Shown here: piece by piece, positions 2,831 through 43,242 of the stretch
Position numbering within the stretch: the stretch's first letter is position 1
How the letters are laid out: the number at the start of each line of letters is the position of its first letter
The notes under the pieces: generated by a model
Databases searched by the model: none
What the model was told of the DNA's origin: nothing
What the model saw: only the letters and a program-made list of their open reading frames with translations
Origin: a virus
Reading direction: 5' to 3' (one strand)
DNA: 43,242 nucleotides
Virus record (IMG/VR): IMGVR_UViG_3300034158_000003
Coordinates: 1 to 43,242 of that record
Made by a program: the position numbers and the translations under genes

Positions 2831-3700
2831 CTATGCGCAGCAGGCTTTTCTGTCAACCTTAGCGTAAGGATCCAGTGGTAGCGCGATGACAGCACGGCCT
2901 TCGTCAACATGGTGATCAGCTTCGGATGGATCACAGCCGATGTGCGTGAATCGGTCCCTGCAGTTGGCCAGCATCCAGTTGAAGTTGTCGTATTCCATGG
3001 CGCACAGGACGCGGCTTTTTCCGAGCTGCGACCACCAGATCCGCCAGGCGTGCGCGTAGTCGATGCAAATAATTGTTTTGCCGTCGTGCTCGCCTTCTGG
3101 TTCAAGGATGGCGGTCGAGCCGAACGATGGGTTCCCGGCTGCGTAGGTGATCGAGCCTGATTTCATAATGGCGGCAACGTTGACTGTCTCGCCGATGTTG
3201 TTGATCAGCGGAACCATCAGGATGCCCTTGCTGTTGACCGAGCTGCAAATATTGGAAGCGGTGTTGTTCGTCATGAGGTATGGATGCATTTCTGTTAGAT
3301 GGGTGCGCGACATGATGTCGGCTGATTTCTGGCTGTCTTCGGCGTGACTCGGCAGCTCGCAGCGTGTTGCCCGAACAATCTTCTTGCGCGGCGCCGCCGA
3401 ACTCTCAAGCGTCAGCTCGCCAAGAATTGACTGGACGGCATCGCGGAAGCTCATGCCTGGATTCATCTCGCGGACGAACCCGACTGCATCACCGCCTGCG
3501 CCGCATCCGAAACAGTAGTACATGCCCTTCGCGTCATTAGTCGTGAAGCTGCCGGATTTCTCTTTGTGGAATGGGCAGACCGCCGACCAGTTTTTCCCGG
3601 TCTTCTTTAGGTCGGGGAGGTATCCGCGAACGACGCCGACAATATCCTCGTTGGCCCTGTCGACGATATGTTGCGGCACAAGCTCACGGTCGCCGCTCAC
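2831..3700 (-). CDS. CHC2 zinc-finger primase-like protein with degraded Toprim region
   Basis: 289 aa. A GTG start overlaps the stop of the repressor gene (GTGA). Residues 42-66 form the DnaG-type CHC2 finger (C42-x2-H45 ... C63-x2-C66, with the YYCFGCGAGGDAVGFV signature), which binds template DNA in primases. Residues 139-190 resemble the linker of phage Toprim primases (HPYL ... LMVPLINNIGE ... YAAG). Residues 209-262 align by eye with a Toprim fold, but the catalytic EGYATA-like Glu is replaced (IDYAHA) and the acidic DxD becomes DPSEAD. The protein may still bind DNA or recruit a primase without full catalysis. It is co-transcribed with the repressor and closed by the terminator at 2757. 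Confidence 0.8.
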   Translation of the reverse strand: MSGDRELVPQHIVDRANEDIVGVVRGYLPDLKKTGKNWSAVCPFHKEKSGSFTTNDAKGMYYCFGCGAGGDAVGFVREMNPGMSFRDAVQSILGELTLESSAAPRKKIVRATRCELPSHAEDSQKSADIMSRTHLTEMHPYLMTNNTASNICSSVNSKGILMVPLINNIGETVNVAAIMKSGSITYAAGNPSFGSTAILEPEGEHDGKTIICIDYAHAWRIWWSQLGKSRVLCAMEYDNFNWMLANCRDRFTHIGCDPSEADHHVDEGRAVIALPLDPYAKVDRKACCA

Positions 3701-4134
3701 TTCTGAAGACTCAGCAGCGTAGGCAGCTTGATTGCCGGGATGCGACCGCGAGACTTCCAGGTGTGATAGTCGGAGACGCTGCAAAATGCGGCGGCACACA
3801 GGTTGCTGACGCTGCCGAATTGTTTGGCTAGGCTGACCAGCAGCTTGGCGTCACCAGTGATTGCCACCGGCTTAACGCCTGGATTCGGACCTGGGAATTC
3901 CTGCGCCCATTCTTCAGCAGTCAGGTCAGGCCGAAACTCTTCTTTCATTCGCCCGGTCTTCTCCGCCAGCGCGAAGGCGGCTCGGCGGGACATGTAGCCC
4001 CTTTTAACCCAGAGCGCCGCCGCTGGCTGGCAGACACCGACAGCGCGACCCAGCGCGGCCGCAGAGCCGTATTCATCGATCAGGCTTGCAAGCACTCGGC
4101 CCCGGTCGTCTTGCTGAAGATCAATTGGAGGCAT
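3697..4134 (-). CDS. Small transcriptional repressor with two tandem Cro/YdaS-like HTH units
   Basis: 145 aa. Residues 23-60 read as a YdaS/Cro-like HTH (AALGRAVGVCQPAAALWVKR). Residues 106-143 repeat the pattern (GSVSNLCAAAFCSVSDYHTW, then KSRGRIPAIKL). A Pro/Gly linker (81-92) joins them. Members of this family are phage repressors that bind short operators. The gene is divergent from the early operon at 4215, and a 13-bp dyad lies between the two promoters, so autoregulation and early-gene control are likely. In-frame upstream Met codons are ignored because they lie across the promoter region. CI-like or Cro-like behaviour cannot be told from sequence. Confidence 0.8.
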   Translation of the reverse strand: MPPIDLQQDDRGRVLASLIDEYGSAAALGRAVGVCQPAAALWVKRGYMSRRAAFALAEKTGRMKEEFRPDLTAEEWAQEFPGPNPGVKPVAITGDAKLLVSLAKQFGSVSNLCAAAFCSVSDYHTWKSRGRIPAIKLPTLLSLQK

Positions 4135-4177: not shown

Positions 4178-4202
4178 ACCACCGGAGAGACAATTATGGC
4201 AA
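4173..4202 (-). promoter_or_regulatory. Promoter for the repressor/primase operon, minus strand
   Basis: On the minus strand TTGCCA (4202-4197) is followed after 18 bp by TACTAT (4178-4173). The predicted start lies just before the dyad at 4152-4164, so a protein bound there would block this promoter and the opposing early promoter together. Confidence 0.55.
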
Positions 4203-4214
4203 TGGAGAAGAGAG

Positions 4215-4427
4215 ATGTCAGACTGGAACAAGATCGAGGATTCCCCGCCGCAAGCTGGCGATTATCTGCTACTGCTCGGTGACGGCTCGATGGCTGTGGG
4301 CTACTGGGATGCGTGGAAAGAATGGTCGCCGAGCGGGGTATACCCAACATATGACGGCTGCGGCACAGTCGCTTTCGATGCAGCTCCAACTTACTGGCAA
4401 CCACTTCCTGAGCCGCCAGTAAAATGA
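4215..4427 (+). CDS. DUF551-like small protein
   Basis: 70 aa. It shows the DUF551 layout: an N-terminal W-x(5)-P-P segment (WNKIEDSPPQAG), a central VGYWDAW stretch and a C-terminal THWMPLP-like ending (TYWQPLPEPP). DUF551 proteins are common in phages of Enterobacteria and Pseudomonas and have no established role. It is the first gene after the early promoter, with GGAGAAG upstream of the ATG. A second DUF551-like gene lies at 42512. The stop overlaps the next ATG. Confidence 0.8.
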   Translation: MSDWNKIEDSPPQAGDYLLLLGDGSMAVGYWDAWKEWSPSGVYPTYDGCGTVAFDAAPTYWQPLPEPPVK

Positions 4428-4687
4428 AGACGCACAGCAGATGCCGCCACTGCCTGGCCAGGCGCAAGCTCAAGAAACACCCGGAAGCCTATCGCCTCCA
4501 GCCAAAATGCCTATGCGGCGCCCGAGACTGGCGCAAGGACGAATACCGTCACCGAGTCGAGGTCGTGCAAATGCGCGCCAAGACGGGCAGATACCTACCC
4601 TGCCACGCTGATTGTTTTCCGCACCCGCACCGAGCCGGCTCGACAGGCTGCAAATTTGACAAAGACTTTAATTATCGCGACAACTGA
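4424..4687 (+). CDS. Cys/His-rich zinc protein of phage early regions
   Basis: 87 aa. C-x2-C near residues 7-10 (CRHCLARRKLKKHPEAY), then a C-x-C and the GARDWRKD motif, then CHADCFPHPHRAGS ... C. Basic throughout (Lys/Arg). This motif set is familiar from small phage proteins encoded beside replication genes. Zinc binding is likely and the role is unknown. ATGA overlap with the preceding gene places it in the early operon. Confidence 0.8.
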   Translation: MKTHSRCRHCLARRKLKKHPEAYRLQPKCLCGARDWRKDEYRHRVEVVQMRAKTGRYLPCHADCFPHPHRAGSTGCKFDKDFNYRDN

Positions 4688-4741: not shown

Positions 4742-5656
4742 TTGGCCTATACCCTCAACAACATCGCATCCGACAAAGAAAACACCGCGGCAAAACGTGG
4801 TGATTCGATCCGCGCACTGCACAGCAAAATCAAGATCGTCAACGGTTTCAATGAGCGTGATTTTCAGCGCGAAGACGTGCGCCTTCATATCGCCTCAATC
4901 GTCGCTGCACTGATTGCTGGCGAGCCGATTCCTGCGCTGGTCGTCTGGACGAATCCAGAAACCGGCGACATCGAGCTGGTCGATGGCGAGTGCCGTTATT
5001 GGGCCTACAGCGATTTCGCTGGCTCCTACCCGGATCGCTTCGACGGTTATGTGAGTGTCGTTCCGTTCCAGGGCACGCCAGCACAGCGTAAGGCCATGGT
5101 AGCCAAGAGCAACAGCCAGCTGCCGCTTGATCCTGTCCAGCGTGGCCGCGTTTATCTTTCCCTGCGCGATGAACACGGCATGACTCGCCAGGATATCGCC
5201 GCCGAAATAGGCAAGTCCCTGGCGCACGTCGATCAGATGATTCTGCTGGCCAGTGCAAAGCCTGAAGTTCTGGCTGCGGTCGACTCTGGATCTATCAGCG
5301 CCACAGAGGCCGTGAAGCTGACTCGCGAGCATGGTGACGATGCGCCAGCCGAGCTGGAGCGCCTCCAGGAGGCCGCTAAAGATCTCGGCAAGGACAAGGT
5401 GACGGCCAAGGTTGCCAAGCCTAAAGCGCCGAGTCGTCCAAAGGTTGACATGGTTGTTTCTAATGCGGTGGTGTTGGTCAAGTCATTGACCGCTGAGCAA
5501 TTGGAAGCCTGCGAACTTCCTGAGCGCGGCTTCATCGCCATTGATTCTCACGCACTCGCCGATCTCATCCAGGCCGTCAACGACATGCGCGAATCTGGCA
5601 AGGCGTTGGATGCTGATAAGCAAGCGGAATTGTTTGAGGGTGAAAATAATGAATAA
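4742..5656 (+). CDS. ParB/Spo0J-like nuclease-fold DNA-binding protein
   Basis: 304 aa from a TTG start placed 8 bases after GGAGC; no upstream ATG is available in frame. Residues 20-125 match the ParB N-terminal domain (LHSKIKIVNGFNERDF; IPALVVWTNPETG; VDGECRYWAY in place of the DGERR box; KAMVAKSNSQLPLDPVQRG). Residues 140-170 form the HTH (MTRQDIAAEIGKSLAHVDQM). The C-terminus is helical and Lys/Pro-linked. Phage ParB-like proteins act in plasmid-type partition, gene regulation or as nucleases. No ParA is present, so partition is unlikely. The 3' end overlaps the next gene. Confidence 0.85.
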   Translation: MAYTLNNIASDKENTAAKRGDSIRALHSKIKIVNGFNERDFQREDVRLHIASIVAALIAGEPIPALVVWTNPETGDIELVDGECRYWAYSDFAGSYPDRFDGYVSVVPFQGTPAQRKAMVAKSNSQLPLDPVQRGRVYLSLRDEHGMTRQDIAAEIGKSLAHVDQMILLASAKPEVLAAVDSGSISATEAVKLTREHGDDAPAELERLQEAAKDLGKDKVTAKVAKPKAPSRPKVDMVVSNAVVLVKSLTAEQLEACELPERGFIAIDSHALADLIQAVNDMRESGKALDADKQAELFEGENNE

Positions 5657-6023: not shown

Positions 6024-8065
6024 TGGCTCTCCAGCTCCTAGAGCATCAGCTCCCAACAATCGCCGCCATGCAAAAACACTTCCGCAGCCGCGAGACGGTG
6101 AAGTGGGGCGACCGAGATATTCATCCGCCTATCGTCTGCAACGCCTCTGTTTCAAGCGGCAAAAGCATAATGATCGCGGCACTGGCCATGGCGGTCAGAA
6201 AGGCCGCCATCAACGCTGCAAAGCCTAGATCTGTCCTCGTGCTGGTCATCCAGCGCCAGGGTGAGCTGTGCATGCAGAACTCAGAAGCCGCCTGGCAGTT
6301 CAACGACGAATCCAAACTGCTGAACAACAGTCTATTCTCGGCCAGTTGCGGCAAGGTCAAATCGACCCATTTTCAAGTGGTATACGCTACCGAGGGCACG
6401 CTTTCCCGCGCTCTGGGTTTCGGCGTAAAAGCCAAGGATGGCGAGGAGCCTGAAGCGCCAAAGCCTCAATACCGCTTCTCTCCGTGCACCGTTGAAGAGA
6501 TGACCAAGACGCCCGAGCAGCGCGCACTGATGAAGAAGTTCCACCCGGACCTGATCATGTGGGATGAGTGCCACCAGATCCCATACGATAATCCGGACAG
6601 CATGGCGGTCAAGATCCTTGAGCATTTCTACGACTGCAAGCCAGCAATGCGTTTCGCAGGATTCAGCGGGTCATGCTTTCGCGGCATCGAGTCTATCGTC
6701 GGCGATACGCCTCAGCACTTATGGCGCAAGTTCGCCAGCATCAAGCCGGACGATCCTGATTACCCGGAGGGCGGGGTAGGCGACGGCATCATCACCACTG
6801 AATTCATGATCGAACAAGGCTGGGTCGTTCCGCCGACATTCGGCTATCCAGACGACACGGATAAGCAATACGACTTCAGTCACCTCAACCCGAACGGCTG
6901 GGAATATGACGAAGCGGAGATGGATGCCATTGTCAGCGATCACCAAAAGCTGCTGGCGGTCTGCTCTGACGTAATCGAGAAGTCGGCCAGCCGTAAGGGC
7001 GTACTGATCTTCGCAGCAACCCAGCGGCATGCCAGGCAGATCGCTGCCGCCATGAAAGACCTCGGCGTTGACCCAGACACCATTGGCGTCATCACCGAGA
7101 AGACCAAGGACAAGGATCGTCGTCGGATTCTGGATCAGGCGAAAACCGGCGTCATCAAGTACACGATCAACGTGGCCGTTCTGACGACAGGAGTTAACGT
7201 GCCGTGGTGGGACACGCTGGTGTTCATGCGGCCAATCGGATCTCTGGTTCTGTTGATCCAAGCTATCGGTCGAGTTCTGCGCCTGCTGATCCTTGACGGC
7301 GAAGTTCCGATGTTTGAGCGCTCCAACCTGTTCGGCCTGACTGCGGCGGATCGACTGGAGCTGATTGCAGCCAGCAGCAAGCCGGATGCTCTAGTGATGG
7401 ATTATGCCGACGTGATGAACACGCTCGGGCACCTGTACGACAACCAGATTCTCGAACAGGCCGAGCTGGAGAAGGCGAAGAAGGAGAAAAAGGATCTGAT
7501 CGAGTGCCCGAAATGTATGGCCGACCTGGGTGTTCAGACCATGAACAGTCCTTCGGCGCGGCGCTGCATCTATCGCGACAACAAGGGCGAGCGCTGTGAG
7601 CACTTCTGGCACTTCAGGTTGTGTCCTGGCTGCATGACTCAGAACGACCAAGTGGCCAGGGAGTGCCGCTCATGCCGTCGCATGCTGATCGATCCAAATG
7701 CCGTACTGAACAATAAGAGTTATTCCGATGGCGAGTCGATTCCTGTGCGCTCGATGAAAGCCGGCCACGGATCAGGCGGAAAACTCTGGTTCCGATACGA
7801 GCTCTCGACCGGCGACACGCCGATGGAAATCTTCTATCCGCATGCCGGCGACAACAAGAAGGTCAACAACATCATCTGGGGCAAGTTCGTTGATGCGCTG
7901 CCGATTGATCAGCGGTCGCGTCTAAGGTTGCGGGCAATGAAGGCTGAAACCGTTATGGAAAACATTGATCTGATACCGGTTCCGGCTGAGTTATCGGCGC
8001 GGAAGAAGGGGAGTCGCTGGACCATAGGCCGCCGTCGCTATCAGGAACAGGAGGTTGCGCTTTGA
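6023..8065 (+). CDS. SF2 DEAD/DEAH-type helicase with C-terminal zinc ribbons
   Basis: 680 aa. Motif I (ASVSSGKS, residues 41-48), motif II DECH (181-184), FSGS near 214-217, and the helicase C-terminal lobe with motif VI QAIGRVLR (413-420) define a superfamily 2 ATPase. After the helicase core comes a helical Lys/Glu segment and four CxxC-type half sites (C495/C498, C515/C525, C534/C537, C548/C551), likely zinc-binding, then about 120 further residues. It probably unwinds or translocates on DNA during phage replication or recombination. The next gene, a VRR-NUC-like nuclease, overlaps by TTGA, and this helicase-nuclease pair is a recurrent phage arrangement. Confidence 0.9.
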   Translation: MALQLLEHQLPTIAAMQKHFRSRETVKWGDRDIHPPIVCNASVSSGKSIMIAALAMAVRKAAINAAKPRSVLVLVIQRQGELCMQNSEAAWQFNDESKLLNNSLFSASCGKVKSTHFQVVYATEGTLSRALGFGVKAKDGEEPEAPKPQYRFSPCTVEEMTKTPEQRALMKKFHPDLIMWDECHQIPYDNPDSMAVKILEHFYDCKPAMRFAGFSGSCFRGIESIVGDTPQHLWRKFASIKPDDPDYPEGGVGDGIITTEFMIEQGWVVPPTFGYPDDTDKQYDFSHLNPNGWEYDEAEMDAIVSDHQKLLAVCSDVIEKSASRKGVLIFAATQRHARQIAAAMKDLGVDPDTIGVITEKTKDKDRRRILDQAKTGVIKYTINVAVLTTGVNVPWWDTLVFMRPIGSLVLLIQAIGRVLRLLILDGEVPMFERSNLFGLTAADRLELIAASSKPDALVMDYADVMNTLGHLYDNQILEQAELEKAKKEKKDLIECPKCMADLGVQTMNSPSARRCIYRDNKGERCEHFWHFRLCPGCMTQNDQVARECRSCRRMLIDPNAVLNNKSYSDGESIPVRSMKAGHGSGGKLWFRYELSTGDTPMEIFYPHAGDNKKVNNIIWGKFVDALPIDQRSRLRLRAMKAETVMENIDLIPVPAELSARKKGSRWTIGRRRYQEQEVAL

Positions 8066-12641: not shown

Positions 12642-13232
12642 TCACTTATCCGGCTTCGTCACCGTGCCAGCGGAGGTGGCGAAGTCCGTGACAATCGCAT
12701 TCTGTTTCTGCGACTCCTTGGTCATACCGAACCAAAATCCCATCACTTCCTTTGTCATGCCCAGCCACAGGCCGAGCACGGTTCCGACTGTCAGCGCAGC
12801 GGTCGGATCTTTGATGACCTCGTTCGCCCACCCGATCAGCACGGCCACGACGACAAACAGGGATCCGCCCAGCATGATGAACGTCAGGGCAGGCCGCACA
12901 ATGTCATTCGGCTGCTTGCCGGCCAACTGCCTGGCGCTATCCCGATCAGCAGCTTCGGCGGCATATTGCGCGCCAGCAGCCTGGAGCCGGATCGTTTCAG
13001 CCTGAACAGACAGCTTCTCCAGCTCGACACGCGCATTCAATTGCAGCTCTTGCACACGAACCATGGCGCCAGGGTTGCCAGCGAGCGCCACACTGACCGC
13101 GTCAGGGTCATTTGGCACATTCAGTGCGCTAGCGACCAAAGCGCCTACAGCAGCGCCAGCGGGGCCACCAAGCAGGGTGCCGACGATTGGCGCAGCTCGC
13201 CCAACGATTCCGCCGATATCAGACCAGTTCAT
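12642..13232 (-). CDS. 3TM-type holin
   Basis: 196 aa from the ATG at 13232 (GGAGTG upstream; 13271 is a longer, less likely opening). An N-terminal Gly/Ala-rich hydrophobic segment (about residues 8-35), a helical Glu/Gln-rich middle, then two clear membrane helices (LTFIMLGGSLFVVVAVLIGW and ALTVGTVLGLWLGM). This matches the 'holin of 3TMs' family associated with phage and gene-transfer-agent release. Predicted to time lysis. It overlaps the endolysin stop and is the last gene of the late operon. Confidence 0.8.
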   Translation of the reverse strand: MNWSDIGGIVGRAAPIVGTLLGGPAGAAVGALVASALNVPNDPDAVSVALAGNPGAMVRVQELQLNARVELEKLSVQAETIRLQAAGAQYAAEAADRDSARQLAGKQPNDIVRPALTFIMLGGSLFVVVAVLIGWANEVIKDPTAALTVGTVLGLWLGMTKEVMGFWFGMTKESQKQNAIVTDFATSAGTVTKPDK

Positions 13233-34328: not shown

Positions 34329-35548
34329 GATTGCAATCCAGCAGTCAGGTCGGCTTCAGGATCTTCCTTTGGCTCGGCAAACAATTTCTTCCACGGATCA
34401 TCCTTGATGATGTCGTGCGTGATCAGATATTCGCGATAATCCTCACCAAGGGCTTCCAGCTTGACAGCGTTATCGATCACCTTGGTCTCAAAGTCCATGC
34501 GCTCGGCCGCAGTGCCACCCTGGTTCTCCTTGAAGCAGACTTCATTAATACCGTAATGCGTGCACAGCTCTTTGATCGGATCTTCCATGTAATCGAACTG
34601 GAGGTTTTCGACCATGTCTTGGAACGACTGGCGCTCCTGGCTGCCGCTGCTGTTCAAGCCCTGGACGGACTCGCCAACCAGAAGTGGAACCGGGATGGAT
34701 GTCACAAGCGCCAAGCGGCGAATCGTGATGTTGTCCACAGAGTCAAGGTTTGTCAGCGCTTGAGCTACCGAAATCATGTCGTCCTTGGCGTCGATTACAG
34801 CATCGCCGTAGATGCCTCGCAGCTCGGCTACTCGCGAGTAGTATTCGATCAAGGCATCATCCTGTCCGCACTTAACCGCGTCAGCAAACCCATCAACCTT
34901 ATGCACAAGCGTCGAGTTCTTTTCGAGAATGGTCCCGCTTGCCCGCTCAACGATGCCGTCGTTGATCAGTTGCGTGTGAATCATTTCGAATTCGCTGACT
35001 CCGCCGTAACGGTAGGTCGGCAGATCCAACTCAGGCGGCGCGTAATAGGTGAAGTCCACAACCCTCGACCAATGGAAGGACTTGCCGCGAACGCTGTAGC
35101 TCTTAGGCTTCTGATAGCGGACATCGTTCAGGTCGATGCTGACTTCCATCGGCGTAACCATGTCGCCACTGAATACGTCGAGCTTCACCTTGGCCAGATC
35201 CAGCTTTCCGGTAAGCGGCTTCGACAGATCGGCGCCGCGCTCATTCAGCAGGATGATACCGCGACCAAAGCCCAGCATGAACTTGGACGCCTTCTTTACG
35301 GCTCGCTGCAATCGCCGCTTGTAAAGTTCTTCGTCCTTATCGTTCGCAAACTGGAGCGTGTCATTCAGCGCGTAACCAGTCTTGATACTGATTATCTTGG
35401 CGCCAAGTCCAGTCTTGAAGATGGCGCGAAGCTGGCTGTCATCCAGTCGAGTAGACGTAACCACGTTGACGTTTGCCGCGCTCCGACGATTCGCGAGCTG
35501 GTTGACGATGTTCGTGATGCCGTCCATGAAGGTACGGGTTCGGCTCAT
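34325..35548 (-). CDS. Portal protein (DUF1073)
   Basis: 407 aa. Starts at the ATG at 35548 (ATGA overlap with terminase; a TTG 15 bases upstream is possible). SRTRTFMDGITNIVNQLANR, FMLGFGRGIILLNERGADLS, SFHWSRVVDFTYYAPPELD and the block VPLLVGESVQGLNSSGSQER are all typical of DUF1073 portals. It forms the dodecameric DNA channel. Confidence 0.9.
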   Translation of the reverse strand: MSRTRTFMDGITNIVNQLANRRSAANVNVVTSTRLDDSQLRAIFKTGLGAKIISIKTGYALNDTLQFANDKDEELYKRRLQRAVKKASKFMLGFGRGIILLNERGADLSKPLTGKLDLAKVKLDVFSGDMVTPMEVSIDLNDVRYQKPKSYSVRGKSFHWSRVVDFTYYAPPELDLPTYRYGGVSEFEMIHTQLINDGIVERASGTILEKNSTLVHKVDGFADAVKCGQDDALIEYYSRVAELRGIYGDAVIDAKDDMISVAQALTNLDSVDNITIRRLALVTSIPVPLLVGESVQGLNSSGSQERQSFQDMVENLQFDYMEDPIKELCTHYGINEVCFKENQGGTAAERMDFETKVIDNAVKLEALGEDYREYLITHDIIKDDPWKKLFAEPKEDPEADLTAGLQS

Positions 35549-36978
35549 AGCATGCTTCTCCAATCTCGCTTGCCCTGGTTCAGGACGTTATCGATGGCGT
35601 CCATCGTTGGGTCGATCTGGTCATCATGGCTGCCTTTGGGGAAGGCCGCGAACTCGGACAGGTAGTCGGAGAGCCATGGCGCGTTCTTGGGCAGCAGTAC
35701 GTTTCCTGATTGTATCAGGGGGATGGCGTCCATGGCTCGGGTGATTTTGTCAATGGATCGCTGGATTCCCAGGATCGGAACGCCTTCCTTCTTCAGCGTC
35801 TGGATCAGGCCGGTTCCGCTCGCCTTATCCTCGACGTTGAATGACCTCAGCGTTCCAGTGCCTTCTGATTTGTGCTTGGCCCAAAACGCACGCGCCTGGG
35901 TCAATAGCTCTGGGGCCTCCCACTTGCCCCGGATCTGATCAATAAGCACGGCCTGCCCTTCCATGGACTCGCCCCAGCACTGGAACACGGAATAATCGTT
36001 TTGCTCTTTGGTCTTGAGCGCGGTGTCGCCGAAGATCGCCCGCCACTTAAGCTTGGGCAGGACGTCGTAGAACCTGAATTCATCCGTCTTGAACATGTTG
36101 CCGCCAAGCGCGATAGGCGACTGCTGATACATGGCCGACCAGAAGTAGTCGGACATGATCGCTTTCTGCTCGAGCAGCTTGTCGAGCGGATGCAGGTCAG
36201 GAACCAGCGCGCCTTCGCGACGACTCGGATCGTAACCCTTCTCGCCTGGCATGTTGACCGCAACGAACTTGAGATGCTTGGCCTTGGCGTTGATCTTCAG
36301 GATGCGGCCTGACAGGTCGTCGGTTGCCCAGCTGGTGGCCATGATGATCTGGCCGCTGTTCTTGCTGAGGCGCGTCAGGAAGGTCGTGATGTACCAGTTC
36401 CAGATGCCGTCCTTGATCGTCTCGCTCAATGCCTCCTGGGCGTTCTTGATCGGGTCATCGATCAGGCCGATGTCCAGGCGCTTACCAGTGAGCGGGCCGC
36501 CGACACCCTGGCCAACGTATCGACCCTTGCGCCCAACGATCTCAAACACGTCGCTGTTGCGCTTGGCTTCGACGTCCACGGTAACGGCACGCTTGGCGCT
36601 GAGAGATGCGCCAGGAAACAGCCGGTGATACTCAGGGCTGAGCATGATCCGCTGAACATCGCGGTTCATGTCGGTCGCCAGGTCTTTGGAGTAGGACAGG
36701 CCGCCGATGGACAGATCCGGAGCCTGGCCGAACAGGAAGGCAGGCGCGTATCGACTGACGATGTCCGACTTGCCGTGTTGCGGCGGCGCCTGAACCACAA
36801 GCACTGGACGCAAACCAGCCTGCTGATCAATGAAGAACTGATCCAGCGCCGCGCACAACTCCTGCGCAAACTCGCTGACGATGTATTCTGGATTGATGTA
36901 CAGGATGAAGTCAAGGAGGCCTCTGCGAGCCTTCCTGCGCCCAAGCAGCTCTTGGGCCGCCAGTTGCACTGGTGTCAT
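35545..36978 (-). CDS. terL: Terminase large subunit
   Basis: 477 aa. ATPase domain: Walker A-like QAPPQHGKS (64-71), Walker B in LDIGLIDD, coupling motif IIMATSWATDD. Nuclease domain with the Asp-rich sites IFGDTALKTKEQNDYSVFQC and FPKGSHDDQIDPTMDAIDNV. It drives headful or site-specific DNA packaging; the strategy cannot be decided from sequence. Overlaps terminase small by ATGA. Confidence 0.95.
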   Translation of the reverse strand: MTPVQLAAQELLGRRKARRGLLDFILYINPEYIVSEFAQELCAALDQFFIDQQAGLRPVLVVQAPPQHGKSDIVSRYAPAFLFGQAPDLSIGGLSYSKDLATDMNRDVQRIMLSPEYHRLFPGASLSAKRAVTVDVEAKRNSDVFEIVGRKGRYVGQGVGGPLTGKRLDIGLIDDPIKNAQEALSETIKDGIWNWYITTFLTRLSKNSGQIIMATSWATDDLSGRILKINAKAKHLKFVAVNMPGEKGYDPSRREGALVPDLHPLDKLLEQKAIMSDYFWSAMYQQSPIALGGNMFKTDEFRFYDVLPKLKWRAIFGDTALKTKEQNDYSVFQCWGESMEGQAVLIDQIRGKWEAPELLTQARAFWAKHKSEGTGTLRSFNVEDKASGTGLIQTLKKEGVPILGIQRSIDKITRAMDAIPLIQSGNVLLPKNAPWLSDYLSEFAAFPKGSHDDQIDPTMDAIDNVLNQGKRDWRSML

Positions 36979-37601
36979 TCTTCTTTCGCCGCAGAGCCTG
37001 CAATCAGCGCGAGTAATGCTTCGTCAGAAAGCTCGGTGACGTCCTTGGTTAAGATTGGTCCGCCGCCAGGTCCGGCGTGTTCGAATTTCTGCGCGGCTTC
37101 CCAGCCTCCCATCTTGGCGAGTTGCGCAATGGCAGCCACTTTGGAGTGCTGTTTGATCTTCGGGCCGTTCTTGCCGACTTCCAGCTCGGAGATAATCATT
37201 AGCTTGTCAGGGTCATTTGCCTGCAATGCCTCGTCGATCTCCCATGTGGTCTGGTGTACGTCGTCGCCCGTCTCGGCGTTCTGGCCAACGTGGACTGTTT
37301 TGAATTTGACGATGTCGGTCAGGTTGCCGCGACCCAGGGTTGTGAGGATTCGCATGGCCTCTTCACGTGTCATGATGGCGTCAGAAACTGCTTGCATCTT
37401 CATCGAATCCATGAACGATTTCACGTTAGGGTTTCTTAGGATTTCATGCGCGCAAACGTCTGTATTGTTCTCAGTCGTGTTGGCCTTTCCTCCCGCCTGG
37501 ATATAGGCCGCACGCTGACTCATGCCCGCAAGCACGTTCGTGGCTACCCGCTGCTGTAGCTGTGTGAGGTTGTCGAATAAAGCCTGCTGCTCAGCGTTCA
37601 T
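36975..37601 (-). CDS. terS: Terminase small subunit (Terminase_2)
   Basis: 208 aa. N-terminal HTH region (LQQRVATNVLAGMSQRAAYI; HEILRNPNVKSFMDSMKMQA) with the Terminase_2 pattern, C-terminal oligomerisation segment (SKVAAIAQLAKMGGWEAAQK). Recognises the pac or cos region. It is the first gene of the long late operon, and the interval before it contains a terminator for upstream transcription. Confidence 0.85.
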   Translation of the reverse strand: MNAEQQALFDNLTQLQQRVATNVLAGMSQRAAYIQAGGKANTTENNTDVCAHEILRNPNVKSFMDSMKMQAVSDAIMTREEAMRILTTLGRGNLTDIVKFKTVHVGQNAETGDDVHQTTWEIDEALQANDPDKLMIISELEVGKNGPKIKQHSKVAAIAQLAKMGGWEAAQKFEHAGPGGGPILTKDVTELSDEALLALIAGSAAKEE

Positions 37602-37653
37602 ATCATTCCCATCCTGTCCGTATGCCTGAAACTATATCACGCCAGCAGAAATG

Positions 37654-37684
37654 AAAAAGCCCGCTTCCGTGAGGTTGCGGGCTT
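37654..37684 (-). terminator. Terminator upstream of the late operon
   Basis: Minus strand: AAGCCCGC, 12-base loop, GCGGGCTT and then TTTC. It would stop minus-strand transcripts coming from 37685-38540 before terminase small, implying that such transcripts exist. Confidence 0.85.
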
Positions 37685-38237
37685 ACCACCTGTAGCTTTA
37701 CGTCGAACTGTCTGTGGTTATCCCCGACGGTGCAGTTTGCGTCACGCTGACGGATGAGATGGCTGGCTCGGTTCTGCCGTGCTTTCCAGCGCTACTTCTG
37801 CTTCGCTTGTCATCTGCATCAAGGTGTGATCCGTGATGGATTCGAACCATCTCCCCAAGTCCGCAGTCCCTGGTTTCGTCCCGCGACAAATCACACTTTG
37901 ATAAAGACGATTTCCGCATCTGCGGGCTGGCTATCCAGATTAGTGGTCTGTGTCGCATCCAGTTACAGAGAGCGGTGATCCACCACCGTAGACATTTGAA
38001 GCCGGACTAATCTCTGCTCGTCCTGCCCATCATCAAAAATGCCGGAGCCAAAACACTTAGATTAAAGGACTTGTCTTTATCTCTCTTCGCCACCAGCGAG
38101 ACAACTGGCATACAGGTAAGCAGACCCTTGGCTAAACACATTCATCGCATTGCGCTATCAGGAGAAAGCTGCCTGAGTGACTGCAAACTTTGCGAAGTTG
38201 ACCGATGTCTCTGACGGTATTGCTGGCGCTGGTTGAT
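37685..38237. other. Interval without convincing protein gene
   Basis: About 550 bases. Frames of 74-91 aa on either strand lack ribosome sites and overlap the tRNA-like element. Contents: the tRNA-like structure at 37824-37896, short dyads (for example CCGCATCTGCGG near 37914) and otherwise no recognised element. On the minus strand a 25-codon frame follows the tRNA-like element (MQMTSEAEVALESTAEPSQP) but has weak support. Confidence 0.5.
37824..37896 (-). tRNA. tRNA-like element, degenerate or partial
   Basis: On the minus strand GTGTGATTTGT (5') pairs with ACGGATCACAC (3') over 11 bp including two G-T pairs. Inside is a perfect T-arm (GATGG, TTCGAAT, CCATC) and an arm CCAGG/CTTGG with a nine-base loop containing CTGCGG. 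The D-arm is missing or replaced by a short hairpin, no encoded CCA follows, and the anticodon loop is not seven bases. It could be a decayed tRNA gene, a tRNA fragment used as attachment site, or a tRNA-mimicking RNA. A standard functional tRNA is unlikely. Confidence 0.35.
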
Positions 38238-38399
38238 TCATTTAACAAGTTCGAGTTTAGCACGCTCTCGAACAAGATCACTGTAAGCTTTAACAATTAC
38301 GATTGGCAAGACAGCCAAGTTACTTTCGATCAGATCAAGAAGTTTGTCGAGCTCTTCAATGCCGAGGATCTTTACATGCATATCAGTTATCGAAGCCAT
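38238..38399 (-). CDS. Small helical protein, 53 aa
   Basis: Minus-strand ORF starting MASITDMHVKILG with AAGGA upstream and a strongly helical body (IEELDKLLDLIESNLAVLPI; VKAYSDLVRERAKLELVK). The opposite strand carries a 91-codon frame through the same bases, but its composition (Phe/Asn/Ser-rich) looks like an antisense shadow. The minus-strand assignment fits the terminator at 37654 and the element at 38562. Function unknown. Confidence 0.5.
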   Translation of the reverse strand: MASITDMHVKILGIEELDKLLDLIESNLAVLPIVIVKAYSDLVRERAKLELVK

Positions 38400-38466
38400 A
38401 TCTTAATCCTTATTGAATTCTGTTGTGGTGGCCGGTGTCGATCTCCGGCTTGGCGGCCTAACTCAT

Positions 38467-38538
38467 CTAGGTATCAGTAGCTCGCCATGGATACTCGCAT
38501 TCAGCATCGACCTGCTCATTCACCACGAAACGAATCAT
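38467..38538 (-). CDS. Very small ORF, 23 aa, possible leader peptide
   Basis: MIRFVVNEQVDAECEYPWRA followed by TDT and stop. It has an excellent GGAGG six bases before the ATG and lies right after a TTGACATAG half-operator. May be a leader peptide of the minus-strand transcript that continues to the 53-aa gene, or simply a small protein. Confidence 0.4.
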   Translation of the reverse strand: MIRFVVNEQVDAECEYPWRATDT

Positions 38539-38554
38539 CTCGCACCTCCAAAAC

Positions 38555-38562
38555 TATGTCAA
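38555..38562 (-). promoter_or_regulatory. Half operator/-35-like element, minus strand
   Basis: Minus strand TTGACATAG matches the first nine bases of the phage operator unit, but the second half-site is missing. No good -10 lies at the right distance before the 23-aa ORF. Possibly a decayed copy. Confidence 0.35.
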
Positions 38563-38639
38563 ACGATTATCGCGACAATCTAAGGAAATTTTATCGGCTC
38601 TGCTTTTCCTGGATTCCAGCCATCGACCCTCGATATCAA

Positions 38640-38673
38640 TCTGCACCCCCTTCCATAAATGGGGGGGTGCAGA
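38640..38673. other. Long GC-rich hairpin next to the iteron array
   Basis: TCTGCACCCCC (38640-38650) pairs with GGGGGTGCAGA (38663-38673). Inside, CCAT/ATGG extends the stem after a two-base bulge with an AA turn, for about 15 bp in total. No T-run follows. It lies three bases from the first GATTCA-type box. Confidence 0.8.
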
Positions 38674-38675
38674 CT

Positions 38676-38956
38676 TGAATCTCGGAAAGGGTTTAAGGGT
38701 ATATTTGAGATTCAAACTGAGATTCACTTTCTGTTTACGAAATAAAAAACCCAATGAAATCAACGGATTCATCGGATTCATTTTAGATTCAAACCATGAA
38801 TCTGAATCCGCAATGAGAATCAGTCCAGATTCAAGGAAATGGATTAATTAAGAATTTCTCAATCTCAGTAATTGCCAAGCGCCCGCATTCATTGGGTTCG
38901 GCTCGGATTCAAACTGAGATTCATTTTCGAAACGTTTACATGTATCCGTCTGAATC
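38676..38956. repeat. GATTCA/TGAATC iteron array, candidate replication origin
   Basis: Twelve copies of the hexamer in about 280 bases: forward at 38709, 38721, 38766, 38775, 38786, 38828, 38906, 38918; reverse at 38676, 38797, 38803, 38951. An 18-bp block GATTCAAACTGAGATTCA occurs exactly at 38709-38726 and 38906-38923. The interval is AT-rich, free of genes and lies directly upstream of the replication operon. These properties match iteron-type origins bound by an initiator. Confidence 0.75.
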
Positions 38957-39008
38957 CCTTGAGTTTGGCGGGTTTACAGTTTATTTCCGGAAACGATTTC
39001 ACTTTTTG

Positions 39009-39037
39009 TTGCCTGGTGGTTTTTGCGGCTGTACACT
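39009..39037 (+). promoter_or_regulatory. Promoter of the replication operon
   Basis: TTGCCT (39009-39014), 17-bp spacer, TACACT (39032-39037). The AAAGGAG ribosome site of the next gene lies about 15 bases downstream. No operator dyad here, so control differs from the other early promoters. Confidence 0.55.
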
Positions 39038-39062
39038 CGCCAAAACGCAAAGGAGAACCGCC

Positions 39063-39299
39063 TTGAAAGTCATCCGAAACGACATCGCTCCACCATCCGA
39101 TAAGCCACGATGCGGCCGCAAGAACAGCAACCCATTCGATGAAATGAAGGTGAAAGCCTCGTTCCTGGTTGACGATGACCGTCTGGCCGCTGTGCGCGTG
39201 TCTGTGTGCCGAGAGAACAAGAAGGGCGTGAAGAAGTATCTGGTTGGTCGCTACACGTCGAAGCGCGGCACTGAGTGGCGCTGCTGGAGGATTGCGTGA
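39063..39299 (+). CDS. Small basic phage protein, 78 aa
   Basis: TTG start 7 bases after AAAGGAG; the frame continues upstream into the iteron region without a better start. The NSNPFDEMKVKASFLV motif and the basic C-terminus (KYLVGRYTSKRGTEWRCWRI) match small proteins often found in phage replication operons (NPFD-x-MKVG-x-S pattern). Possibly DNA-binding; role unproven. Confidence 0.75.
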   Translation: MKVIRNDIAPPSDKPRCGRKNSNPFDEMKVKASFLVDDDRLAAVRVSVCRENKKGVKKYLVGRYTSKRGTEWRCWRIA

Positions 39300-39640
39300 A
39301 CCTGAATGCAGCCGTGCTTGACTGCTACGGTTGCAAACTTCCAGAGATACCTAATAACGGCAGGATGTATACGTTTCCTATCGGCCAGCTAAAACTTGGC
39401 TACGTCATTAATCTGGGTGAAGTATTTGTATTTGGCTGTCGCACTGATGGCGATAATTATTACTTCGATGGCGTTGAGTGGCATGGCTATGTATCAGTGC
39501 CGGCAAGACCGACAAAGCAGGAGTTCAACAGAATGATAATAGAATGCGCTCGCGGGTTGATTATTCGCGGAGAAGTGTTGTGCGCCACTGATGCGGCCAG
39601 GCTTAAACTTGCAGTACAGCAAGTAGAGGCAAACTCATGA
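39296..39640 (+). CDS. Hypothetical replication-operon protein, 114 aa
   Basis: GTG start with GGAGG five bases upstream and GTGA overlap with the previous gene. N-terminal Cys-containing DCYGCKLPEIPNNGRMYTFP, then a beta-rich part (YVINLGEVFVFGCRTDGDNY) and a C-terminal helix. May act as helicase loader or accessory given its position just before the helicase, but no homology is claimed. Confidence 0.65.
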   Translation: MNLNAAVLDCYGCKLPEIPNNGRMYTFPIGQLKLGYVINLGEVFVFGCRTDGDNYYFDGVEWHGYVSVPARPTKQEFNRMIIECARGLIIRGEVLCATDAARLKLAVQQVEANS

Positions 39641-40944
39641 TGGAGGATTTTGAGCATCCATCGGAAGTCCCAGAATCAACTGACGAGCTGATTGACCTGA
39701 TGGCGCTGGTCGAGGCTGAGCCCGAGAAGTTCGACCCGACGCAGCAGGTTGTGCAGATTCAAAGCTATAAGGAGTTTGTCGAAAAAGCTGTCGAGGATGG
39801 CAAGCGGTCGCCGAAGAAGGTAGCGCCTGAAGTCGACGACGCAGTGTCTGGCGCCAAATTCCTGTCCCGTATCGAGTTCGATGAAGACGTAGCCATCGAG
39901 CGCGTCAAGAACAAGAAGTGGCTCATCTACGGATTTCTGCCGCACAACGATGTCGGTTACATCTATGGGCGTCCAGGCAGCTACAAGAGCTTCATGGCGC
40001 TGGATGTGGCCAGCAGGGTGGCCAGCGCCAGCAAGTGGAATGGCATCGACGTCGACTATCCCGGCATGGTTCTGTACATCGCCGCCGAGGGCGGTAGCGA
40101 GTTGCACCTGCGCAAGAAGGCCTGGCGGATCGAGACTGGTGAAGACAACAGTGCTGTGACCATTCTTGAGGCCAGCGTCATCATCAATAACGCAGTTGAC
40201 CGCGAGCAGTTGAAGGCAGCCATGCGCGAAGTGCAGAAGAAGCTCGGCATGAAATATGTGCTGGTTGTCATCGATACCTTTTCCAAATGCTTCGCTGGCA
40301 ACGAGAACGACGCCGCCGACATGCGCGGGTTTATCACTGGCTGCGAGGATATCCGAGATTCGTTCGATGGCTGCACTGTGCTTTTCGTTGGTCACACTGG
40401 CAAGGGCGACTCAGCATCCATGCGAGGCTCATCGGTTGCGTTCGGTGACTGCGGGTTCAGCTACAAGATCACGCGGGGCAAAGAGAAGCTTTACGCTGAG
40501 CTGCACACCGACAAGATCAAGGACGCCATCGAGCCGGAAGACATGGCATTCGAATTCTCGGTGGTGCGTACCGGCGACGTGAGCGCAAAAGGTATTGAGC
40601 TAGCCAGCCTGGTGCCGAAGATGACCGCCATGCTCGACAGGACAGAGATGAATGCCGACTTTGATCAGGGTCGCGCCGAGAAGGAGAAGACGGCACCGAA
40701 GGCCAACCAGCGCGTCAAGTCGATGATCATGAGTCAGCTCCGTTTGCGGTGCGCGAAGAACACGGGGGCTCCAGAGCCGAGGCTTGTGGTTCGCGACGAC
40801 GTAATGAATATGCTGATCAGCGCCGACGAGATGAATCCGAACACGGCGAAGACTGCCTGGCAGCGGGCGGCTTTCGAGCTGCTTGAAGAAGGCGCAATCA
40901 AGAAGGTTGATGGCGACCTTTGGTTGCCGGTTAAGGGGAGATAG
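39637..40944 (+). CDS. RepA-like AAA+ replicative helicase
   Basis: 435 aa. Walker A GRPGSYKS (111-118), AAEGG at 149-153, Walker B VLVVID (208-213), and VGHTGKGDSASMRGSS (251-266), as in the AAA_25/RepA family of hexameric DNA helicases used by plasmids and phages. About 100 residues precede the ATPase core and a C-terminal basic winged-helix-like region follows. Downstream of the iteron array it is the prime candidate for the replication helicase. ATGA overlap with the preceding gene. Confidence 0.9.
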   Translation: MMEDFEHPSEVPESTDELIDLMALVEAEPEKFDPTQQVVQIQSYKEFVEKAVEDGKRSPKKVAPEVDDAVSGAKFLSRIEFDEDVAIERVKNKKWLIYGFLPHNDVGYIYGRPGSYKSFMALDVASRVASASKWNGIDVDYPGMVLYIAAEGGSELHLRKKAWRIETGEDNSAVTILEASVIINNAVDREQLKAAMREVQKKLGMKYVLVVIDTFSKCFAGNENDAADMRGFITGCEDIRDSFDGCTVLFVGHTGKGDSASMRGSSVAFGDCGFSYKITRGKEKLYAELHTDKIKDAIEPEDMAFEFSVVRTGDVSAKGIELASLVPKMTAMLDRTEMNADFDQGRAEKEKTAPKANQRVKSMIMSQLRLRCAKNTGAPEPRLVVRDDVMNMLISADEMNPNTAKTAWQRAAFELLEEGAIKKVDGDLWLPVKGR

Positions 40945-42840: not shown

Positions 42841-43242
42841 GCATTCAAAAAGGTTACAAGCTAGTCCCGGCGTCAATGTTGCTGGACAAAGAAACAATCA
42901 GCTCAATCAATTTTCATTGCGGTGATGGCGGCGACAATTTTGGCGAGCATTCCGACGGCCTGCTTTGGGTTGGCGCCGTCACCGATGATGAAGGCAATGA
43001 GGTTTACGGATTGCACCTTGCGACTGCCGAGTATCCAGAGGAAGGCAGCACCACGCTTGTTGAATTTCAAGCCCATGAAGACACCGCCCAATCCGAGCTG
43101 GCTGCGCTGCGGGAAGAGCTCGAAATGGCACGCGACGATCTGGTCATTTTCAAAAGTGCAGTGTCTGCCCTCTGGGAGGCGTCTAAAAAACTGGTCTTTT
43201 GTGCCAGAACCACGGGAGGAACAGCCGGGCCAGATCAGGGCT
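42837..43242 (+). CDS. 5' part of the 242-aa coiled-coil protein (continues at base 1)
   Basis: Starts MSIQKGYKLVPASMLLDKET with ATGA overlap and runs off the window end. Residues 1-85 form a conserved-looking head (SSINFHCGDGG; HSDGLLWVGAVTDDEGNEVY), and the ELAALREELEMARDD coiled coil begins at about residue 87. The frame matches the reading frame at base 1. Confidence 0.8.
   Translation, partial: MSIQKGYKLVPASMLLDKETISSINFHCGDGGDNFGEHSDGLLWVGAVTDDEGNEVYGLHLATAEYPEEGSTTLVEFQAHEDTAQSELAALREELEMARDDLVIFKSAVSALWEASKKLVFCARTTGGTAGPDQG
43116..43242. repeat. Terminal direct repeat, right copy
   Basis: Exact copy of bases 1-127 (see left copy). Confidence 0.95.

Follow-up and report, generated by a model that had tools for sequence, protein, structure and literature searches.

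The oriV of the IncQ plasmid RSF1010, which functions with RepA, RepB' and RepC, contains 20-bp direct iterons, and hairpins are found near the origin. In satellite phage P4 the primase, helicase and ori-binding functions are combined in a single protein, alpha, that acts at ori and crr, and the many short sites present there in both orientations are read by the C-terminal domain of this replication protein. Bacillus phage SPP1 uses gp38, gp39 and gp40, an origin-binding protein, a loader and a helicase, at oriL/oriR, where repeats are combined with an AT-rich element and the host polymerase carries out synthesis (PMC6316719). In the PLE satellites of Vibrio cholerae the RepA domain and the iterons co-vary; the replicon is kept while the origin repeat and the DNA-binding portion of the initiator are swapped jointly (PMC8263062). 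Such a joint change in the specificity of an origin and its reader is difficult to investigate, since every site has to change simultaneously.

Here a viral sequence of 43,242 nt was analyzed at its full length (IMG/VR record IMGVR_UViG_3300034158_000003, positions 1-43,242; "the window"). The record is complete, as its first and last 127 bases (1-127 and 43116-43242) are identical, and these termini probably reflect an overlap in the assembly of a circular or permuted genome. The phage is a myovirus since a tail sheath is encoded. Recombination-type proteins are also encoded and, because no DNA polymerase was found among the proteins read, the host polymerase is likely used. A leftward terminase pair is followed by a gap that holds an array of hexamers and then by a rightward operon of three genes. 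We estimate a probability of roughly two in three that the hairpin and hexamer array in the gap (38640-38956), judged from sequence comparison, act in cis as the origin of a mobile replication cassette. The features are as follows.

2831 to 3799, - strand: CHC2 zinc-finger DnaG-type primase, outside the cassette
4742 to 5656: ParB-like protein (phrog_1033), also present in L003 and Amjad_SA
35545 to 37601, leftward (read right to left): terminase pair, left of the array gap
38640 to 38673, + strand: hairpin TCTGCACCCCC-TTCCATAAATGG-GGGGGTGCAGA, with the first + oriented site 35 bp further downstream
38676 to 38956, both strands: array of 12 GATTCA sites at 38676-, 38709+, 38721+, 38766+, 38775+, 38786+, 38797-, 38803-, 38828+, 38906+, 38918+ and 38951-
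38709 to 38731, + strand: duplicated block, copy 1, with two sites 12 bp apart
38748 to 38758, + strand: left arm AACCCAATGAA of an 11-nt inverted repeat that flanks the central sites
38888 to 38898, + strand: right arm TTCATTGGGTT of the same repeat
38906 to 38928, + strand: duplicated block, copy 2, 96% identical over 23 bp
39063 to 39299, + strand: 78-aa phrog_10287-like protein ("PF..M...SF...EWRCWRI"), fast-diverging, candidate array-binding initiator
39296 to 39640, + strand: 114-aa protein (121 aa if it starts at GTG 39275), candidate accessory or loader protein
39637 to 40944, + strand: RepA-like helicase (AAA_25), third gene of the operon

The sequence-only reading had described twelve GATTCA hexamers in both orientations, and all were found, eight on the + strand and four on the - strand, within 281 gene-free bp. 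Its estimate that chance predicts less than one also agrees with our count: outside the array 26 copies are scattered over 43 kb, so that some 0.2 copies would be expected per 281 bp. Any 6-mer was present at least 12 times in only 5 of 2000 dinucleotide shuffles of the gap, and the array is the strongest 6-mer cluster genome-wide, the maximum count of any 6-mer elsewhere being 7 per 389 bp. The second-strongest cluster, seven copies of GCGCCA at 12921-13220, lies within coding sequence. Both copies of the 18-bp block GATTCAAACTGAGATTCA, reported at 38709 and 38906, match exactly, and the duplication stretches to 23 bp, with the reported 12-bp internal spacing. The gap is AT-rich as claimed (GC 0.40 against about 0.55 for the genome), and stretches inside the array fall to 24-36% GC. 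The operon does begin directly downstream (first start at 39063, TTG), with the helicase as its third gene. The description as an iteron array was correct in part: repeats of a single word are clustered near replication genes, but they are not classical plasmid iterons, which are regularly spaced direct repeats of about 17-22 bp, since the words are 6 bp long, lie in both orientations and are spaced 6-78 bp apart. Gaps of 11-12 bp recur between same-strand sites, for some pairs only.

Two viral contigs, L003 (41 kb) and L004 (a 22 kb fragment), were found via the helicase; searches of viral and species genomes gave no other relatives of the helicase and the 114-121-aa protein at useful similarity. 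L003 is collinear with the window across nearly its whole length. The match to L004 consists essentially of the cassette (hairpin, array, small protein, 114-121-aa protein and RepA-like helicase), apart from a few short weak protein hits. The homologous regions of both contigs have the same hairpin and site positions and different words, which is a new observation. In an unbiased count the top 6-mer of the gap was GATTCA in the window (12 copies), GATGCA in L003 (7, tied with two overlapping words) and GATGTA in L004 (8), and the words do not occur in one another's gaps except for one GATGTA in L003. Relative to the hairpin, sites lie at the same distances in all three phages, differing by at most 1 bp (+36, +48, +102, +113 and +245, with some words degenerate), and the window and L003 have further offsets in common at 3 and 130 (both minus strand) and +233. 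Exact words coincide at five positions between the window and L003, above all 380 rotations; the coincidence with L004 (three sites) was weaker, as 5 of 380 rotations matched it. Additionally, CCAATGAAT motifs in L003 and L004 resemble the left arm of the 11-nt inverted repeat of the window.

When the window and L003 are aligned, GATGCA stands opposite GATTCA at seven sites (one of these pairings spans a gap), while outside those sites T to G is found at 11 of 153 positions (7%); the notation runs from the window to L003 and implies no evolutionary polarity among the three phages. The shared site positions are due to common descent. Descent does not explain the same base change at seven sites; this requires selection by a reader with shifted specificity, or a spreading process, e.g. 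gene conversion between the sites, and subsequent selection of that kind. At the level of sequence, the geometry of the array is conserved and the switching of the word is concerted, and judged from these alignments a site-specific factor must read the array. Non-functional local expansion of repeats by mutation is the least probable explanation and can practically be set aside: slippage can create short repeats, but the copies lie in both orientations with irregular spacing and unrelated sequence between them, and the different word at the same positions in relatives is a conserved geometry that contradicts it. Methylation of the CcrM type (GANTC) was also rejected, as GATTCA contains GATTC and the words GATGCA and GATGTA do not.

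The terminases of the window and L003 are of the Terminase_2/Terminase_6 type, and L004 has an unrelated Sf6-type/Terminase_3 pair. This bears on whether the small terminase, whose gene is about 1.1 kb away, recognizes the array as a packaging signal (pac or cos). A terminase is the leftward neighbor of the array in L003, L004 and the cultured Pseudomonas phage Amjad_SA as well, and the pac site of phage P1 is built of hexamers. A packaging signal would be expected to follow the terminase type, but the hairpin and site positions are common to the window and L004 despite their unrelated terminases and the array tracks the replication genes, which makes packaging improbable. The comparison establishes, as far as these contigs go, that the array is co-inherited with the replication genes independently of terminase type. 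A probable replication origin, as claimed earlier, stands as the best reading, and this co-inheritance, the kept site geometry and the concerted word change add support to it.

The hairpin beside the array has a DNA fold z of -5.0. The window, L003 and L004 have the same loop TCCATAAATGGGGGG, with 0 mispaired cells and 2 compensatory changes, and the covariation is suggestive only (61 of 500 shuffles). A search of viral contigs with the loop gave 60 stretches, and the flanking arms were found only in those of L003 and L004. The hairpin was rejected as an intrinsic terminator, as a T-run is absent on either side.

The array could alternatively be an operator at which a phage regulator represses or activates the rightward replication operon, without itself being an origin. 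It lies in the divergent gap and stops about 106 bp short of the operon's first gene, word switching requires merely some site-specific binder, and the first gene, which is tandemly duplicated in L004, could be an autoregulator. However, twelve non-palindromic sites over 281 bp are more than a simple operator would be expected to have, the + strand gave no good sigma-70 promoter, and the conserved hairpin without a T-run and the AT-rich DNA suit an origin better. An operator is unlikely, yet it is the main rival to an origin, and operator and origin roles can coexist.

The cumulative GC skew that had been proposed as a check on the origin has a local dip at the array and no global minimum. The dip is not diagnostic because the switch from leftward to rightward genes coincides with it, and GC skew was rejected as an origin test since it is confounded by gene direction. 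No DnaA box within one mismatch of TTWTNCACA was found in 34983-39777, and a DnaA-dependent origin was rejected on this basis.

The array is real, conserved and specific, and is probably an origin with a switching recognition word. We infer binding, melting, helicase loading and origin activity as follows. A cassette-encoded protein would bind the GATTCA words, several of them about one helical turn apart, and build a nucleoprotein complex on the array; this complex would open the AT-rich DNA and position the RepA-like helicase for theta replication by the host polymerase and the phage primase. The analogy with the SPP1 and PLE replicons makes an origin the most likely reading. The likeness to SPP1 is functional; the helicase of the window is RepA-like and not of the DnaB type, and its repeats lie outside genes. 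The PLE differ in that they have three ~30-bp semi-palindromic iterons and a RepA_N initiator, whereas the window, L003 and L004 have 7-12 hexamers, another gene set and conserved positions. As in RSF1010, a RepA-type helicase (AAA_25) adjoins the repeats and a hairpin lies nearby; unlike RSF1010, the hexamers are in two orientations, the primase is of the CHC2 type, and no RepC was found among the early proteins scanned (a subset of the ORFs). P4 shares the many short two-orientation sites, but the functions of alpha are split over separate genes in the window, where array binding is putative.

The protein that binds the array is, from sequence comparison, most likely the 78-aa protein or the C-terminal domain of the helicase. 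The 78-aa protein diverges fastest (44% identity to L003 versus 75% for the helicase). Its model has a beta-alpha-beta-beta fold of moderate confidence (pLDDT 74), and among viral folds its best match (E 2e-3, probability 1.00) carries the name DnaA C-terminal, with no match in the PDB. Relatives of it in L071, L072 and Yazdi-M have no adjacent array, which counts against it as the reader. In L004 the array is followed by a tandem pair of small phrog_10287-like genes that have diverged from each other (4191-4663). In the helicase, identity is 81-86% for the core and only 54-63% for the C-terminal 75 residues; this terminus may be a winged helix as read by eye, for which database searches gave no support. 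Relatives of the helicase on plasmids are labelled "helicase RepA family". The model of the 121-aa protein is poor (pLDDT 50), and PDB sequence and fold searches gave nothing meaningful.

The ParB-like protein is a less likely reader because its helix-turn-helix segment SLAHVDQ is identical in the window and L003 although the words differ. The same segment argues against a partition or silencing site for this protein, an explanation slightly less probable even than packaging. The protein is present in the window, L003 and Amjad_SA, and the parS loci of RedRock are arrays of 8-bp repeats (PMC7157519). However, its gene is far from the array, it was not found in the L004 fragment, and no ParA was found among the window ORFs read.

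These comparisons suggest that the recognition code of the origin changes along with a phage protein. One probable origin occurs naturally in three states (GATTCA, GATGCA and GATGTA), at the same positions and with compact operons, which allows swaps that can identify the reader and the code. This would give a function to a widespread family of small phage proteins, and origins in other phages carrying the cassette could be located in the same way. More tentatively, and with the odds against it, the locus may represent a new class of phage replication cassette, with short two-orientation words at fixed positions and a new small initiator family (phrog_10287-like), in which the word is switched wholesale and the geometry and helicase are kept.

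Amjad_SA (L082) encodes a 38% identical homologue of the 114-121-aa protein, which supports the 39296 start of the 114-aa protein. The gap between its leftward terminase and rightward operon has twelve copies of GAGCAC (0 of 2000 shuffles), and a second word, GATAGA, is repeated eight times (2717-2945). The passages found in its published description (PMC12968170) do not mention an origin array. The first gene of its operon encodes a possible small-protein relative, judged by eye ("MEVGSSKF...FRVWRIS") and at 22% identity, that gave no profile match; the Amjad_SA helicase is a DUF3987 protein, unlike that of the window. Within an annotated hypothetical gene of Amjad_SA (7561-7860), ACCTGG occurs 17 times in 300 bp.

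A comparable array upstream of the helicase was not found in the distant RepA-like phages L085 and L086 nor in loci L005 and L006. In L084 (MW202711) ten copies of GGGACA occur in 300 bp (6481-6780), about 1.4 kb downstream of its RepA-like helicase. A ~30-nt non-coding element, TTGTGGTGGCCGGTGTCGATCTCCGGC, with no match to an Rfam family, is present in the window (38421-38456), L003 (3741-3766), L087, L088 and L089, and recurs, with about 89-94% identity, in numerous phage records from several genera. This stretch of the window is matched by 64 records, nearly all via this element among the matches listed. The element sits in gene-free gaps in those records inspected and adjoins a tRNA in L003 and L089.
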